DNA from: Niabella sp. | GTDB taxonomy: Bacteria > Bacteroidota > Bacteroidia > Chitinophagales > Chitinophagaceae | Direction: 5' to 3' | Length of the DNA stretch: 64,000 bases | Assembly (NCBI GenBank): GCA_017744795.1 | Contig: JAGIAQ010000003.1 | Coordinates: 1-64,000, forward strand | Part shown: in pieces, positions 22,250 to 39,520 of the stretch | Numbering within the stretch: the stretch's first letter is position 1 | Layout of the letters: the number at the start of each line of letters is the position of its first letter | The notes under the pieces: model-generated | Databases searched by the model: none | What the model was told of the DNA's origin: nothing | What the model saw: only the letters and a program-made list of their open reading frames with translations | Program-made: the position numbers and the translations under genes

Positions 22250-23056
22250 TTAATCTAATATTCCCTTTACAAAATCTTTAGTAACAGCCGCAACATCCGT
22301 TTTCCCCTCCAGCGCTTTTATAAACGCAGAGCCGATGATGGCCCCGTTGGCGTATTTGGCCGCTCTTGAAAAAGTAGTTTTGTCTTTAATGCCGAATCCG
22401 ACCAACACCGGATTTTTAAGCTGATACCCCTTCAATCGCTCCAGGTAAGTTTCCACCTCAGCAAAGTTCTTATCTTTTCCTGTAGTGGAAGAAGAAGATA
22501 CCGCGTAAAGAAAGCCGCTGCTTAGTCCGTCCAGCAGGTGCACACGTTCAGCCGACGTTTCCGGTGTTACCAGGAAAATAAAATCAAGTCCATTTCGTTC
22601 CAGTATGGGTTTATAAAGCGCTTCAAACTCATAGGGTGGCAGGTCCGGAATGATCAGTCCATCCACACCAACGGCCGCCGCATCAGTGCAAAACCGCTCA
22701 AAGCCATATAATAAAACAGGGTTGATATTGCCCATAAGGATTACCGGAATAGTAATCGTGCTGCGCATCGCTTTCAGCTGTTCAAACAGTTTGGCGATGG
22801 TCATTCCATTCTTCAATGCCACAATGCTGCTGTTTTGGATGGTTTCCCCGTCCGCCAGGGGGTCACTGTAGGGCATGCCTAATTCAATAATATCAGCACC
22901 GCTTTCCTGTAAAGTTTGCATAACCAACAGCGTACTATTCAATTCCGGGTACCCGGCGGTGCAATAAATATTTAAAACGTTTGCCGGCTTTTTTTCAAAA
23001 AGCGTTTTCAGTCTTGACATAACTCTCTGCTCTTCTTTAATAGTTTTGCATTTCAC
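22250..23056 (-). CDS. trpA: Tryptophan synthase subunit alpha
   Basis: [45 protein letters not shown]. Overlaps the trpB 3' end. Confidence 0.98.
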
Positions 23057-24230
23057 GCATATAAGTATCCATATCCTTATCCCCGCGCCCGCTCAAACAA
23101 ACAACAACGGTATCGTTCTTTGTGTAAGAGATCTTATTCAGCGCCGCCAGGGCATGCGCACTCTCCAAAGCGGGGATGATCCCCTCCAGTTTTGCCAGTT
23201 CAAAAGCCGCCTGCAAGGCTTCTTTATCCGTAGCATTTAGGAATTTACCACGCCCGGTTACAAATAAATTGGCGTGCATGGGGCCAATACCGGGATAATC
23301 AAGCCCTGCTGAAATACTGTAGGGCTCTTCCACCTGCCCATCCTCCGTTTGCATCAGGTAGCTCTTGCTACCGTGTAATACCCCTGGCTTGCCTAATTGT
23401 GTTGCAGCCGCGCTCATATGCGTATCAATGCCGCAACCGGCGGCTTCCACCGCAATAATATCTACAGAAGGTTCGTCCAGGAAATGATAAAAAGTGCCCG
23501 CCGCATTACTGCCCCCGCCTACGCAGGCCATCACCGCAGTGGGTAATTCTGTACCCATTTTTTCTTTGAGCTGCGCGCGTATTTCCTTACTGATCACGCT
23601 TTGAAAGCGGGCCACCATATCCGGATAAGGGTGCGGCCCTACCACGCTTCCTATAATATAGAAAGTATCATTAGGATTGTTGATCCAGTCGCGGATGGCT
23701 TCATTGGTGGCGTCTTTCAATGTTTTGCTGCCGCTTTTGGCGGGTACCACGGAAGCGCCGAGCATTTTCATCCGGGCCACATTGGGCGCCTGGCGCTCGA
23801 TGTCTTTTTCGCCCATGTAAACGATACATTCCAGTCCCTTCAGCGCACAAACGGTTGCGGTGGCCACGCCATGCTGCCCGGCTCCGGTCTCCGCAATGAT
23901 CCGTTTTTTTCCCAAACGTTCTGCTACCAGTATCTGCCCAATGGTATTATTGACCTTATGCGCACCGGTATGACAAAGATCTTCCCGCTTTAAATAGACG
24001 TTCGTTCCGTATTTTTCGCTTAAGCGCGCCGCATAATACAGCGGCGTGGGCCGCCCGGCGTAATCCGACAACAGAAGCTTATACTCTTCCTGAAACGAAG
24101 CACTCTCAATAATTTTTAAATAATTCTCCCGGAGCTCTTCCACATTCCTGTACAACATTTCCGGGATAAAAGCACCACCGAATTCGCCATAATACCCATG
24201 CTCATCCGGCTGTTTATAAGATACCGCCAT
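23037..24230 (-). CDS. trpB: Tryptophan synthase subunit beta
   Basis: [49 protein letters not shown]. Confidence 0.99.
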
Positions 24231-34131: not shown

Positions 34132-34767
34132 TTAACCGCGTCTTAATTCCTGAATAAATTTTTCAATCAACTCCACATCCTTTATACCCGGCGCCGTTTC
34201 AAACCGGCTGTTTACATCCAGCGCGTGCACTTCCTGCTCCGCAAAAAACAATTTCAGATCGGCAACGTCTTCCGGTCCGATGCCGCCGCTCAGGAACCAG
34301 GGTTTTCCTAACCCGACCCCGCGCAAGGCCGACCAGTCGAACTTCCTGCCCGTACCCCCATATTCTTTAGCTTTAGTATCAAACAAAAAAGCGTCAACCT
34401 CTTTTTCGAAAGGGCCGGTCAGCTCAGCAACAGCCTCATCCCCCTTTAAACGAAACACTTTGATGATTTGCGCATCTATGTTTAATGCGCTTATAAACTC
34501 CCGCGTTTCATCCCCATGCAACTGAACAGCGTCCAGTCCGTAGGCAGCTACTGTTTCCCGTATCGTTTCCGCAGTCGCATTAACAAACACCCCAACTTTT
34601 TTGATGCCCGTCAGCTGCTTCAATGCCACAGGTCCTATTTTCCCTTCAGCATATCTCGGCGAAGCCGGATAAAAAATAAACCCGGCATAATCCACACCCA
34701 GCGCTGCCAGCTGCTCCACCTGCTGCAGCCGCGTCATGCCACAAACTTTTATCAGGGGATGGGTCAT
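34132..34767 (-). CDS. trpF: Phosphoribosylanthranilate isomerase
   Basis: IKVCGMTRLQQVEQLAALGVDYAGFIFYPASPRY; DAVQLHGDE; LSGGIGPEDV. Confidence 0.98.
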   Translation of the reverse strand: MTHPLIKVCGMTRLQQVEQLAALGVDYAGFIFYPASPRYAEGKIGPVALKQLTGIKKVGVFVNATAETIRETVAAYGLDAVQLHGDETREFISALNIDAQIIKVFRLKGDEAVAELTGPFEKEVDAFLFDTKAKEYGGTGRKFDWSALRGVGLGKPWFLSGGIGPEDVADLKLFFAEQEVHALDVNSRFETAPGIKDVELIEKFIQELRRG

Positions 34768-35552
34768 TATTGCGCCTGTAATTGGGTTACAAAATATTCA
34801 AATGCCACCGGCGGATTTTCCTGTTTCATAAAATATTCACCGATCAGAAATCCCTTGAAACCATTTTTACGGAACAACAGGATATCCTCAATTTTATCGA
34901 TACCGCTTTCTGCAATTTTTACCCGGTCGGCGGGAATCTTTTCCGCCATCTTCAAACTGCGTTCAATATCTACTTTAAAGGTTTTAAGATCGCGGTTATT
35001 GATACCTACGACCCTTGTGGCCTCGCAGATATGCCCCAACTCCTCCTCCGCATGCAGTTCCAATATTGTTTCCAGTCCCAGTGATGCCGCAAAAGTTGCC
35101 AGCCGGTTTACTTCGGCCGGGGAAAGGCAGGCAGCGATCAGTAAAATAATATCGGCGCCGAAGGATTTTGCTTCTACGATCTGGTATTCATCAACAATAA
35201 AATCCTTCCGCAAAATAGGAATGGCATTGTTTCGCGCAATCGCAAGATCATTGAGCGAGCCTCCGAAAAAATTTTCGTCGGTTAAAACCGAAAGGGCTGC
35301 AGCGCCAAAGCGGGTATAGGCCCCTGTGATGGTTGCTACGTCGGCATCTTTATTGATAAATCCTTTGGAAGGCGATTTCCGTTTGAACTCCGCTATGATG
35401 CCCGTGCTTCCCGGTTGTTGCAGCGACGCCGCCAATGAACGTACGGGCAGCTGAAACGCCGCCGTTGCTTCCAGCATTTTATATGCTGTTTGCTGCTTCC
35501 GTCCGGCGACTTCTGTTCTTTTGTGCGCAATGATTGTATCTAATATATTCAT
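34767..35552 (-). CDS. trpC: Indole-3-glycerol phosphate synthase
   Basis: IIAEFKRKSPSKG, LRKDFIVDEYQI, GINNRDLKTFKVD. Confidence 0.98.
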   Translation of the reverse strand: MNILDTIIAHKRTEVAGRKQQTAYKMLEATAAFQLPVRSLAASLQQPGSTGIIAEFKRKSPSKGFINKDADVATITGAYTRFGAAALSVLTDENFFGGSLNDLAIARNNAIPILRKDFIVDEYQIVEAKSFGADIILLIAACLSPAEVNRLATFAASLGLETILELHAEEELGHICEATRVVGINNRDLKTFKVDIERSLKMAEKIPADRVKIAESGIDKIEDILLFRKNGFKGFLIGEYFMKQENPPVAFEYFVTQLQAQ

Positions 35553-35626
35553 AATCTTAAAAATCCGCTGTGGCGTACCTCCGGCACGCCGTCGATTTAT
35601 TTATTCATTTTTTCTACAAACAGGAT

Positions 35627-35639
35627 GCTCCTACGGAGC
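35627..35639. repeat. Palindrome gctcctacggagc in the trpC-trpD gap
   Basis: With its flank tctacaaacaggat it matches the reverse complement of 4804-4830 at 24 of 27 positions. Confidence 0.8.
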
Positions 35640-35757
35640 TTCATAAAACAGGAATAAACAATAAGAAACAGTATGATCAAATTATAGCACTTCAAAATTC
35701 TACATTCTTTATTTCTTATTCTACATTTCACTATTCACTTTTGCCTATTGCCTTTCT

Positions 35758-36750
35758 TCATTGCAATGCAATTAATTTTTGTAAGCACTTATAAGCTTTA
35801 CCTGCCCGCAGGCTTTCTTTCGCCGCATCAAACGCAGCAGCATAGCCGGGATAAGCGCCCGTCACTTCCAGCGCCACGGCTGCATTTGCCAGTACCACCG
35901 CTTCCTGCTCGGGAGTTCCATTCCCCTGTATGATATCTGAAAATATTTTTGCTGCCGCTGCCACCGTATCGCCGCCTTTAATTGATTCAGGGCTCACCTC
36001 CCGGCCGCCCAGCTCCATGGCAGACAGGATACGTTCCCCTTCTGCGGTAATAATTTTCGAATCTCCGGTTAATGAAATTTCATCATATCCATCCAGCCCG
36101 TGAACAATTGCAAAATGCCTGGATTGCTGTTGCATCAGGTAATTATAAAGCCGGGCCATTTCCAGGTTATACACGCCAATGATACTAAAAGAAGGGAAGG
36201 CCGGGTTCACCAACGGGCCCAACATATTAAAGAAAGTACGCAATCCCAGGTTTTTGCGAATGGGCCCTACATTTTTCAACGCCGGGTGAAATTGAGGTGC
36301 ATGCAAAAAACAAATGCCAGCCTCTTCCAGCTCGCGCTGAAGGGCTTGCTGATCATTTTTAAATTTATAGCCCAGCGATTCTACTACATTGGACGCACCG
36401 CTAACGGTTGATGCACCGTAATTGCCATGCTTGCTTACTTTATGCCCCGTGCCCGCAACAATAAAACAGGAGAGCGTGGAAATATTAAATGTGTTTTTAC
36501 CATCCCCTCCCGTGCCCACAATATCAATGGTATCCATTCCGCCGAAATTCAGCGGCACACAGAGTTCCAGCAATGCGTCCTGAAATCCCTGCAATTCCTG
36601 CAGCGTGATGCTGCGCATGAGGTACACGGTCATAAATGCAGTTACCTCATGTTCATTGTAAACACCGTTGCCAATATTCACCAGGACCTCTTTGGCCGTT
36701 GGCCGGTCGAGGGTTTTATGTTCAAATAATACCGATAATATTTTTTTCAT
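35758..36750 (-). CDS. trpD: Anthranilate phosphoribosyltransferase
   Basis: DIVGTGGDGKNTFNISTLSCFIVAGTGHKVSKHGNYGASTVSGASNVVESLG. ATG at 36750 preferred. Confidence 0.98.
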   Translation of the reverse strand: MKKILSVLFEHKTLDRPTAKEVLVNIGNGVYNEHEVTAFMTVYLMRSITLQELQGFQDALLELCVPLNFGGMDTIDIVGTGGDGKNTFNISTLSCFIVAGTGHKVSKHGNYGASTVSGASNVVESLGYKFKNDQQALQRELEEAGICFLHAPQFHPALKNVGPIRKNLGLRTFFNMLGPLVNPAFPSFSIIGVYNLEMARLYNYLMQQQSRHFAIVHGLDGYDEISLTGDSKIITAEGERILSAMELGGREVSPESIKGGDTVAAAAKIFSDIIQGNGTPEQEAVVLANAAVALEVTGAYPGYAAAFDAAKESLRAGKAYKCLQKLIALQ

Positions 36751-36909
36751 TTTTTTATTTTTTATGTCGGCTGCAATGCTGCTATCAGCTTCGTTGCGTC
36801 GCACTCTTCATCGTCCCGATCCTATCCATGTGTCGCCGCGATGCGGCTACCAATATATCGCTCCTACAGAGCTGTACCATGAGCTATTGACTATGGACTA
36901 TGAACTGTT

Positions 36910-37479
36910 TTACTGCTTCAGCCAGTTCCGTATGATCGTTTCCCCCAATGGTGTTAACACGCTCTCCGGATGAAACTGTACGCCCTGCACGTCATATTGT
37001 TTGTGCTGTAACGCCATGATCATATCGTTGTCATCCACCGCCGTTATTTCCAGGTCGGCCGGAAAATTTTCAGGAGCTACCACCCATGAATGATAGCGTC
37101 CAATCTCAAATTCATCCGGAATGCCGTCAAATAGTTTCCCCGTGCGTTTTATTATTTTACAATTCGTGGCAATGCCATGATACACCTGGGGCAGATTATA
37201 AAGCGTTCCTCCAAAAACCTCTCCAATGGCTTGTTCGCCCAAACATACGCCCAGTATCGATTTAGAGGCCGCATACTCTTTTATCAGCGGCAATAACAAT
37301 CCGGATTCTGAAGGGATTCCGGGACCCGGAGATAAGATAATTTTATCATATTGTTTTACGGCTTCTAATGGGATCTGGTCGTTACGATGCACTTCTACTT
37401 TTTGATGCAGGATCTTTTCCACCAGGTGCACCAGGTTGTAAGTAAAGGAGTCGTAATTATCAAAAACGAGTAATTTCAT
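36910..37479 (-). CDS. trpG: Anthranilate synthase component II (glutamine amidotransferase)
   Basis: LVFDNYDSFTYNLVH, LSPGPGIPSESG, ILGVCLGEQAI, VQFHPESVLTPLG. Confidence 0.97.
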   Translation of the reverse strand: MKLLVFDNYDSFTYNLVHLVEKILHQKVEVHRNDQIPLEAVKQYDKIILSPGPGIPSESGLLLPLIKEYAASKSILGVCLGEQAIGEVFGGTLYNLPQVYHGIATNCKIIKRTGKLFDGIPDEFEIGRYHSWVVAPENFPADLEITAVDDNDMIMALQHKQYDVQGVQFHPESVLTPLGETIIRNWLKQ

Positions 37480-37565
37480 TATTTTTAGTTTCGCGTCTAT
37501 GGTTTATGGTTTGATGTTTTATACTTCGGTGCAACGACAAACCATAAATCAAAAACAATAAATTT

Positions 37566-38984
37566 TTATAATATTTTTTCGGCTTCAACGATTGCTTTTT
37601 TTAAAGCGCCTAATTTATTGATCACTTCCTGCAACTCTCCTTCCGGATTACTTGCTGCCACGATGCCGCCGCCGGCCTGACGTGTTAAAGTATTATTCCG
37701 GCTTAAGAAACTGCGGATCATGATAGCCTGGTTGCAGCTGCCGTCGAAGCCCATGAAACCGATGGCGCCACCGTAAAAACTACGCGCAGTTGGCTCAAAC
37801 AAACTGATCAGCTGCATAGCCTTTATCTTGGGCGCACCGCTTAACGTGCCGGCCGGGAAGGTTTTTGCAAACAGATCGAAGGGATGGGTTTGCGGATAAA
37901 CCGTTCCGTTTACCTCGCTTACCAAATGGATGACATGAGAATAATAATGTGCTTCTTTAAAATGGCTCACGTGCACATCGCTGCACCCACGGCTGAGGTC
38001 ATTGCGGGCAAGGTCTACCAGCATTACATGTTCTGCATTTTCCTTTGGATCTGCTTCCAGGATGCGCGTTTGTTCAGCATCTGTTGTATCATCGCCGGTA
38101 CGTTTAATGGTGCCGGCAATGGGATGTATGGTGGCTTTGCCATGGTTGATGATCAGCTGCGATTCTGGTGAAGAGCCCATTAGCTTATAATCGCCATAAT
38201 CAAAAAAGAAAAGATAAGGCGACGGATTGATGCTGCGCAGGGCCCGGTACACGTTAAACTCATCGCCACTGAATCGTTGGGTAAACCGCCGGCTCAGCAC
38301 GATCTGGAACACATCGCCGCGGTGGCAATGCGCAATCCCTTTGCGCACCATAGCGCGATGTTCCTCGTCCGTCATATTTGACGCTTCTTCACCTATTGCT
38401 TTAAACGGATAGACCGGAACATCCCTGCCTTTCAAAATTGACAGCAGCGCTTCTTTTTCGCTTTTGATATTTTCTATTTTATTTTCAAGCAAAAACAGCT
38501 GGTCTTTAAAATGGTTGATGGCAATAATATATTGATACAGGCGATAACGCAATAAAGGAATATCTGCTGCACTATTTTTAAACCGGCTGCCGGGAATGGT
38601 TTCAAAAAACTGGATGGCGTCATAGGTGGTGTACCCGTATACGCCCTGGGCGTAGCGCGCTTCCTTTTGTTCGTTCGGTTCCACGTCAAAATGATCCATA
38701 AAATCCGTCAGCACTTCCGTTATTTTGTGGGTATCGGAAAGCTGTATTTTTTCGGCGGTTTGTCCTGGTAATTTGCAATCGATCGTATTACCGGACACCA
38801 TTTCAATACCTGCAATGGCATTAACGCCGATAAACGACCAGCTATTGTTGGTGGCGTTATTATCGGCACTTTCCAGCATGATGGTGTCGCGAAAACGGTC
38901 GCGCAGGCGCAGGTAGATGCCCACGGGCGTAAATACATCCGCCAGCATTGTTTGCACTTCGGTTATAATTTTTATTTTTTTCAT
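37566..38984 (-). CDS. trpE: Anthranilate synthase component I
   Basis: Chorismate-binding signatures (GDVFQIVLSRRF, SPSPYLFF-like INPSPYLFFFDY, GAPKIKAMQLI, GGAIGFMGFDG). ATG at 38984 preferred. Confidence 0.97.
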   Translation of the reverse strand: MKKIKIITEVQTMLADVFTPVGIYLRLRDRFRDTIMLESADNNATNNSWSFIGVNAIAGIEMVSGNTIDCKLPGQTAEKIQLSDTHKITEVLTDFMDHFDVEPNEQKEARYAQGVYGYTTYDAIQFFETIPGSRFKNSAADIPLLRYRLYQYIIAINHFKDQLFLLENKIENIKSEKEALLSILKGRDVPVYPFKAIGEEASNMTDEEHRAMVRKGIAHCHRGDVFQIVLSRRFTQRFSGDEFNVYRALRSINPSPYLFFFDYGDYKLMGSSPESQLIINHGKATIHPIAGTIKRTGDDTTDAEQTRILEADPKENAEHVMLVDLARNDLSRGCSDVHVSHFKEAHYYSHVIHLVSEVNGTVYPQTHPFDLFAKTFPAGTLSGAPKIKAMQLISLFEPTARSFYGGAIGFMGFDGSCNQAIMIRSFLSRNNTLTRQAGGGIVAASNPEGELQEVINKLGALKKAIVEAEKIL

Positions 38985-39024
38985 CCGTTCTATTGCTTTG
39001 TTTTGTTTGAGAGCGATCAACAAA

Positions 39025-39047
39025 AAACCCCGGAAGTACCGGGGTTT
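39025..39047 (-). terminator. trp attenuator terminator hairpin upstream of trpE
   Basis: Minus strand AAACCCCGG-TACTT-CCGGGGTTT followed by TTT; perfect 9-bp stem, between leader peptide and trpE. Confidence 0.9.
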
Positions 39048-39078
39048 GAATATATTGTTACAATACTGGACAATAGCA

Positions 39079-39138
39079 TTACAGCACCCCGAAAGCGTTG
39101 TTATGCCACCACCAATTATTGTTTTTTACAAAATTCAT
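39079..39138 (-). CDS. trpL: trp leader peptide MNFVKNNNWWWHNNAFGVL
   Basis: Minus-strand reading: atg aat ttt gta aaa aac aat aat tgg tgg tgg cat aac aac gct ttc ggg gtg ctg taa. Three consecutive Trp codons ahead of a terminator and trpE. Confidence 0.88.
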   Translation of the reverse strand: MNFVKNNNWWWHNNAFGVL

Positions 39139-39144
39139 TTGCAG

Positions 39145-39176
39145 CAAATATAAATTTCAAAAATAAAATCAACAAA
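39145..39176 (-). promoter_or_regulatory. Putative trp operon promoter (Bacteroidota sigma-ABfr type)
   Basis: Minus strand TTTG (39176-39173), 20-nt spacer, TATATTTG (39152-39145); matches TTG-N19-21-TAnnTTTG. Confidence 0.75.
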
Positions 39177-39260: not shown

Positions 39261-39320
39261 GGTCCGGTAGCCATCGGGAAGATAGAGCATGGCGCCTGCA
39301 GCGCCAAGGTCATTGGTTCG
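39261..39320 (+). pseudogene. tRNA-like fragment 1
   Basis: Shares ggtccggtagc, gatagagca and aggtcattggttcg with the adjacent tRNA-Arg; the anticodon arm is replaced by TGGCG-CCTGCAG-CGCCA and the 3' half is lost. Confidence 0.7.
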
Positions 39321-39354
39321 GTCAATAACTAATGACTTCATAACAAAAATAATT

Positions 39355-39428
<74 letters not shown>

Positions 39429-39520
39429 CTTCGAAAAGCGTTACAGAGGTGTAGCGCTTTTTTATTGGGTAAAACCCCAGTCGGCTTTTTGCACACTTTT
39501 TATCATCCAGTTATATAATG

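Follow-up and report, generated by a model that had tools for sequence, protein, structure and literature searches.

A putative ribosome-mediated attenuator with a predicted near-leaderless tandem-Trp leader ORF upstream of trpEGDCF in Niabella sp.

The stretch of DNA analysed here in its whole length (64,000 nucleotides, from Niabella sp.; hereafter designated the window) carries, at 39176–38984 on the minus strand, a promoter of the Bacteroidota type, a leader ORF of 19 codons in which three Trp codons follow one another, and a 9-bp terminator, followed by trpE. This arrangement raises the question of whether transcription of the trp genes is controlled by a ribosome translating the leader ORF. 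The evidence presented below indicates that the locus is very probably a ribosome-mediated transcription attenuator of trpEGDCF, representing within the trp leader family of Bacteroidota the branch of the Chitinophagaceae.

Leader region and trp operon of the window

The elements of the putative attenuator and the genes that follow it are:

39173–39176, minus strand: −33 element TTTG of a sigma-ABfr type promoter (read directly; columns conserved in 128 relatives)
39145–39152, minus strand: −7 box TATATTTG, ending 6 nt before the leader ATG (read directly)
39139–39142, minus strand: predicted transcription start, leaving a 5′ UTR of 0–4 nt (from the position of the −7 motif)
39138, minus strand: leader start codon ATG (read directly)
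39079–39138, minus strand: leader ORF MNFVKNNNWWWHNNAFGVL* (read directly; homologous ORFs in relatives)
39106–39114, minus strand: three consecutive Trp codons (TGGTGGTGG), which form the core of segment 1 and are the putative sensor codons (nearly invariant across alignment A1)
39060–39122, minus strand: protector hairpin 1:2, formed by the Trp-codon strand (about 39122–39103) and a strand from the stop codon (about 39080–39060) (MFE fold; duplex energy against shuffles; wobble-compatible partner columns)
39086–39091, minus strand: segment 2, antiterminator strand CGGGGT, within the last codons of the leader ORF (co-varying with the terminator 5′ arm)
39040–39045, minus strand: segment 3, ACCCCG, the terminator 5′ arm common to antiterminator and terminator (read directly; relatives)
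39022–39047, minus strand: intrinsic terminator 3:4 (stem scan; 10-pair terminator in the family alignment)
37566–38984, minus strand: trpE, first structural gene, ATG at 38984 (Pfam Anth_synt_I_N and Chorismate_bind)
36910–37479, minus strand: trpG (Pfam GATase)
35758–36804, minus strand: trpD (Pfam Glycos_transf_3)
34767–35552, minus strand: trpC (Pfam IGPS)
34132–34767, minus strand: trpF (Pfam PRAI)

All elements that the first-pass annotation had listed were recovered in place by direct reading and by a stem scan. The terminator stem (39047–39039 / 39033–39025) has 9 bp, 6 of them G-C, with a loop of 5 nt and a T-run at 39027–39022. The predicted folding energy of the leader region is −49 kcal/mol, whereas its dinucleotide shuffles average −33.6 ± 3.6 (z = −4.3; 0 of 200 as stable), and when the 64-kb window was scanned for the combination of a −7-like box 4–9 nt before a mini-ORF ATG, a residue run, and a terminator, the trp leader was the sole match. 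Pfam assignments give the downstream gene order TrpE, TrpG, TrpD, TrpC, and TrpF (a trpEGDCF operon), and the closest named relative of the TrpE protein is that of Niabella drilacis (87% identity).

The genes trpBA (22250–24230, minus strand) lie about 10 kb from trpEGDCF (34132–38984, minus strand), with a plus-strand gene in the intervening DNA, and no Trp-run leader was seen upstream of trpB in the window. Because of this distance and the lack of such a leader at trpB, the coverage of the attenuator is probably limited to trpEGDCF. On the other side, a divergent tRNA-Arg (TCT) gene occupies 39355–39429 (plus strand) upstream of the attenuator; the stretch at about 39265–39335 between the two has, as judged by eye only, a tRNA-like beginning and may be a decayed tRNA copy.

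Conservation and alternative pairing in relatives

Among close relatives the Trp codons upstream of trpE are conserved: a short ORF with tandem Trp codons was found in 66–67 of 70 Chitinophagaceae regions, and 71 of 80 named loci, a set overlapping the 70 regions (with many loci of the same group and some genomes in common), carry the leader, including those of Niabella, Niastella, Terrimonas, Flavihumibacter, Sediminibacterium, Ferruginibacter, and Chitinophaga. The consensus of the leader peptide is M-K-x(5-8)-WWWHTN(S/L)xRGL*. Two loci (L102 and G088) start with GTG in an otherwise identical layout, L180 has WRW in place of WWW, and three leaders with WWW (G031 (L065), L176, and L177) showed no hairpin at the usual distance in the terminator scan. 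In one clade, consisting mostly of metagenome records from fresh water (L153–L158, L164, and G054 (L059)), the terminator, the GGGG, and the leader are kept with a single Trp codon preceded by Gly (e.g. NNGWH), which is possibly a weakened attenuator. In the rest of the class, 33 of 47 other trpE upstream regions gave a candidate ORF, about 30 of which are leader-like and lie within 360 nt of trpE.

The terminator itself co-varies, double changes being found in 8 of the 10 terminator pairs of the family alignment. Moreover, the compensatory changes between CGGGGT and ACCCCG expected for an antiterminator were found. The duplex between each leader and its own terminator 5′ arm averages −14.1 kcal/mol, compared with −12.1 kcal/mol when arms are swapped between species (z = −10; 20,000 permutations; n = 129 non-identical leaders), and for 25 representatives of below 72% similarity a mean duplex energy as good as the observed one arose in 0 of 50,000 permutations; the latter test controls relatedness only in part, the pairing classes being plainly different sequences nonetheless. 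The antiterminator strand co-varies with the terminator 5′ arm over at least six sequence classes, including (antiterminator/arm) CGGGG/CCCCG, CGAGGC/GCCTCG, TAGGGT/ACCCTA, GTGCCG/CGGCAC, GTGTCGGG/CCTCGACAC, ATGATTGG/CCAGTCAT, CAGTG..CC/GGCTCGCTG, and, in Kaistella/Chryseobacterium, CAAAGTCTT/AAGACTTTG. The common 5′ arm, together with these permutation tests, indicates that antiterminator and terminator pairings are mutually exclusive. In the window sequence alone the antiterminator (−12.6 kcal/mol) is no better than the swapped average (−14.1 kcal/mol), and support for it comes from comparison across the family. When pairs were counted in a MAFFT alignment of the main clade alone, with a one-nucleotide choice because two frame types are one nucleotide out of register, 71 of 5,000 permutations equalled or exceeded the observed value, a result much weaker than the wider tests because the clade is nearly invariant there. 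The antiterminator had been described as short; in relatives it extends to 8–12 bp with flanking pairs and averages about −14 kcal/mol, so that it is not particularly short.

The Chryseobacterium and Kaistella loci (L168 and L169; Flavobacteria) combine a TrpE unusually near the Chitinophagaceae protein (61%) with a wholly different antiterminator, and a transfer of the trp operon involving them is possible.

The position of the antiterminator strand is constrained as well. It lies 21–27 nt from the first Trp codon, in two frames: 60 leaders have the first G of the GGGG at codon position 2 and 34 have it at codon position 1, the encoded residues being RGL or GVL. Since CGGGG is kept in two reading frames, the constraint acts on the RNA nucleotides and not on the peptide. 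In shorter leader ORFs the strand is shifted past the stop codon, where it would presumably still be within reach of a ribosome at that codon. The median distance from the leader stop to the terminator stem is 31 nt. The anatomy of the attenuator, its conservation, and its alternative pairing can all be read from these sequences.

We then considered how the window RNA would fold for defined positions of the ribosome. When the ribosome occupies the Trp codons and the terminator 3′ arm is still to be transcribed, the mean probability of pairing between the 5′ arm and the leader is 0.83, and it exceeds 0.5 in 123 of 129 leaders. The terminator forms with a probability of 0.95 with the ribosome at the stop codon and of 0.90 with no ribosome. 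At equilibrium with the full terminator present, however, it prevails even with the ribosome on the Trp codons (0.94 versus 0.01 for the antiterminator); therefore, the switch must work kinetically. This dominance of the terminator at equilibrium in every modelled state would also suit a constitutive premature terminator without any switch, the leader ORF only tuning basal expression by translational coupling or reinitiation, and leader ORFs can indeed raise expression through reinitiation (PMC4833913). Such an arrangement, however, would have no need of the covariation between antiterminator and arm or of the 21–27 nt distance held in two frames, and with about 95 nt between the leader stop and trpE the spacing greatly exceeds the reinitiation distances of 10–16 bp (PMC4833913). 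We consider this explanation improbable.

Further constraint is seen within the coding region. In the MFE fold the Trp codons pair with the stretch starting at the leader stop codon (hairpin 1:2), with a duplex energy in the window of −18.1 kcal/mol versus −10.8 for shuffles. Across the leaders, the own 1:2 duplex averages −14.7 kcal/mol versus −10.0 with shuffled partners (mean z = −1.9), a weaker signal than that of the antiterminator. As TGG cannot change, variation is limited to the partner strand, whose columns swap between wobble-compatible bases (GU 22, GC 15, and other 5 in one column; GC 31, GU 9, and other 2 in another). WWWH is followed by a conserved ACAAAC: the third codon after WWW, for Asn, reads AAC in 86 leaders and AAT in none, and the Thr before it is mostly ACA. 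The ACAA is consistent with pairing to TTGT before the leader stop, and, given this fit, conservation of the HTN codons and of the final Leu codon is best attributed to constraint on the RNA.

These observations bear on a second alternative, namely that the product of the locus is a WWW peptide with a function of its own or an sRNA, and that trpE is expressed from another site. Strong conservation of WWWHTN would agree with it, as would the trans action of S. meliloti rnTrpL and its peptide (PMC7298713). Yet the C-terminal residues vary (RGL or GVL) while the nucleotides stay, the codon choice just described (AAC, never AAT; mostly ACA) looks like constraint on RNA, and a sigma-70-type scan, which does not cover Bacteroidota promoters, gave no promoter between the terminator and trpE; this alternative is, by a little, even less probable than the first. 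That Trp is sensed by a T-box, a TRAP-like protein, or a riboswitch, systems known from the trp operons of Firmicutes, and that the Trp codons are there by coincidence, is hardly credible, since no T-box or riboswitch was among the Rfam matches at E ≤ 1 in the window and nearly all relatives keep the tandem Trp codons. Attenuation by a translating ribosome, the reading put forward in the first pass, is thus supported by conserved Trp codons, terminator covariation, and compensatory changes in the predicted antiterminator.

Promoter position and proposed course of attenuation

In the window, the TTTG and TATATTTG are separated by a spacer of 20 nt. The promoter lies at a nearly fixed distance from the leader in relatives: TTTG-like columns are kept at −39 to −36 relative to the leader ATG (128 relatives), and 115 of 128 leaders have a −7-like box ending 3–9 nt before the ATG, the distance being exactly 7 nt in 73. 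Among the large ORFs of the window taken for comparison, 1 of 44 has such a box at that distance. The near-leaderless geometry that had been pointed out at this locus is therefore a conserved feature and no accident. Because the promoter motif of B. thetaiotaomicron is centred at −7 relative to the transcription start (PMC7366714), the transcript is predicted to start 0–4 nt before the leader ATG, and from the position of the box in these 115 leaders the trp leader is predicted to be a leaderless mRNA. Published proportions are about 3.7% for B. thetaiotaomicron 5′ UTRs shorter than 10 nt and 5.5% for leaderless mRNAs of F. psychrophilum. In several other families of the class the −7 box lies 4–13 nt before the leader ATG, and in loci positive for the Rfam family RF01692 it lies 18–30 nt before it in 4 of 5 and within 10 nt in 0 of 5; the closeness of promoter and ATG is thus graded across the phylum and tightest in Chitinophagaceae. 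That the control peptide is predicted to start almost at the first base of the RNA is the most notable property of this attenuator.

From these elements we infer the following course of events for ribosome stalling and the response to Trp. Transcription would begin at or within a few nucleotides of the leader ATG, and the ribosome would therefore load at the RNA 5′ end without a Shine-Dalgarno sequence and follow RNA polymerase. When charged tRNA-Trp is scarce, the ribosome would stall on WWW and cover segment 1, so that CGGGG, left unoccupied, could bind the terminator 5′ arm ahead of synthesis of the 3′ arm, and the polymerase would read into trpE. When Trp is sufficient, the ribosome would reach the stop codon and cover CGGGG, whereupon the terminator would fold and transcription would end about 115 nt from its start. 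If the leader is not translated, the 1:2 hairpin would presumably trap CGGGG in its apical loop, again favouring termination.

Relation to known amino-acid leaders and wider meaning

The Bacteroidete tryptophan peptide leader RNA is described in Rfam as RF01692 Bacteroid-trp (Weinberg et al. 2010; PMC2864571). The present leaders resemble it in phylum, in their place upstream of trp genes, and in a leader ORF with tandem Trp codons within a long hairpin, the RF01692 model ending in the terminator 5′ arm; they differ in the −7 box 3–9 nt before the leader ATG and in the antiterminator sequence. As a ready identification of the window leader RF01692 had to be set aside, there being no match in the window at E ≤ 1. 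Its cut-off of 49 bits is passed by 0 of 61 family genomes and by 5 of 149 genomes in the class, and sub-threshold matches, the best at 41.7 bits, fall exactly at the trpE leaders of G029, G053, G028, G008, G037, and G002. Conversely, R1, a covariance model built in the present analysis, scores 35.7–41.2 bits on 4 of the 5 RF01692-positive loci and 23.7 bits on the fifth, although it also matches ordinary terminators. As a survey tool R1 matched 190 of 247 class genomes, with up to 14 matches per genome, mostly at 35–40 bits; since many of these are probably generic terminators, it was not used for distribution. We take the Chitinophagaceae leaders as an unrecognised branch of the RF01692 kind, without claiming formal membership.

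The E. coli trp attenuator (RF00513 Trp_leader) shares the tandem Trp codons, the 1:2, 2:3, and 3:4 pairings, and the terminator before trpE, and its model gives a weak structural match at the right place in the window (26.2 bits, E = 0.008) and 32.0 bits in L184, both below the cut-off of 41 bits. Unlike the E. coli system, the present leader has three Trp codons instead of two, is not preceded by a Shine-Dalgarno leader, and has its antiterminator strand inside the leader ORF, in the 1:2 apical loop. Leaderless trp attenuators are known from other phyla, namely Sinorhizobium meliloti rnTrpL (PMC7298713) and Streptomyces lividans TrpL1, MFAHSTRNWWWTAHPAAH, whose peptide contains WWW (PMC8079986), both transcribed from the leader ATG; the transcription start is mapped there and predicted here, and no sequence relation to them was shown. 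Leader-peptide attenuation has also been inferred, with transcript starts mapped, upstream of amino-acid operons in Flavobacterium psychrophilum, a Bacteroidota species of a different bacterial family, antiterminator covariation not being described in the text consulted (PMC9723704). The unusualness attributed to the locus in the first-pass annotation was accordingly overstated: the Bacteroidota trp leader family RF01692, the attenuators inferred in F. psychrophilum, and the leaderless trp attenuators of Sinorhizobium and Streptomyces make it a member of an already known kind. Vitreschak et al. 2004 reportedly listed Bacteroidetes candidates. New here are a family-wide branch invisible to Rfam, the antiterminator covariation, the fixed promoter–ATG spacing, and similar His leaders at hisG.

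As to the latter, short ORFs with runs of 3–5 His codons (e.g. MNINVHTHHHHHFLPRG) occur upstream of hisG (L223–L246, e.g. L225 and L226). Of 25 family genomes, 22 carry such an ORF, and 16 of the 22 also have a −7-like box whose end is no more than 10 nt from the ATG; none of the five hisG loci scanned gave an Rfam amino-acid-leader match. Upstream of ilvD (L252, L253, L254, L258, L259, L265, and L266) there are leader-like ORFs with long Ile/Val runs, e.g. MLNRIINNITNNSVIIIVVVIIISVTGGGV. These Ilv leaders are present in part of the family and are not near-leaderless, the −7 box lying mostly 15–25 nt before the ATG. It might be speculated, with considerable doubt, that amino-acid attenuators of this branch of Bacteroidota, at least those of trp and his, are generally built around near-leaderless leader ORFs, that the first ribosome binds straight to the 5′ end as it emerges, tightly coupled to the polymerase and independent of a Shine-Dalgarno system, and that the terminated RNA of about 115 nt remains as a small leaderless mRNA, possibly acting in trans like Sinorhizobium rnTrpL.

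In practical terms, there is a gap in that Rfam misses nearly all Chitinophagaceae trp leaders, as seen from the 61 genomes above, and probably the His leaders of hisG too. The fixed promoter–ATG spacing provides a natural, defined setting in which leaderless initiation and coupling could be studied in Bacteroidota. Collectively, on the basis of covariation, it may be concluded that classical attenuation, which needs coupled transcription and translation, very probably works family-wide in a phylum without Shine-Dalgarno initiation.
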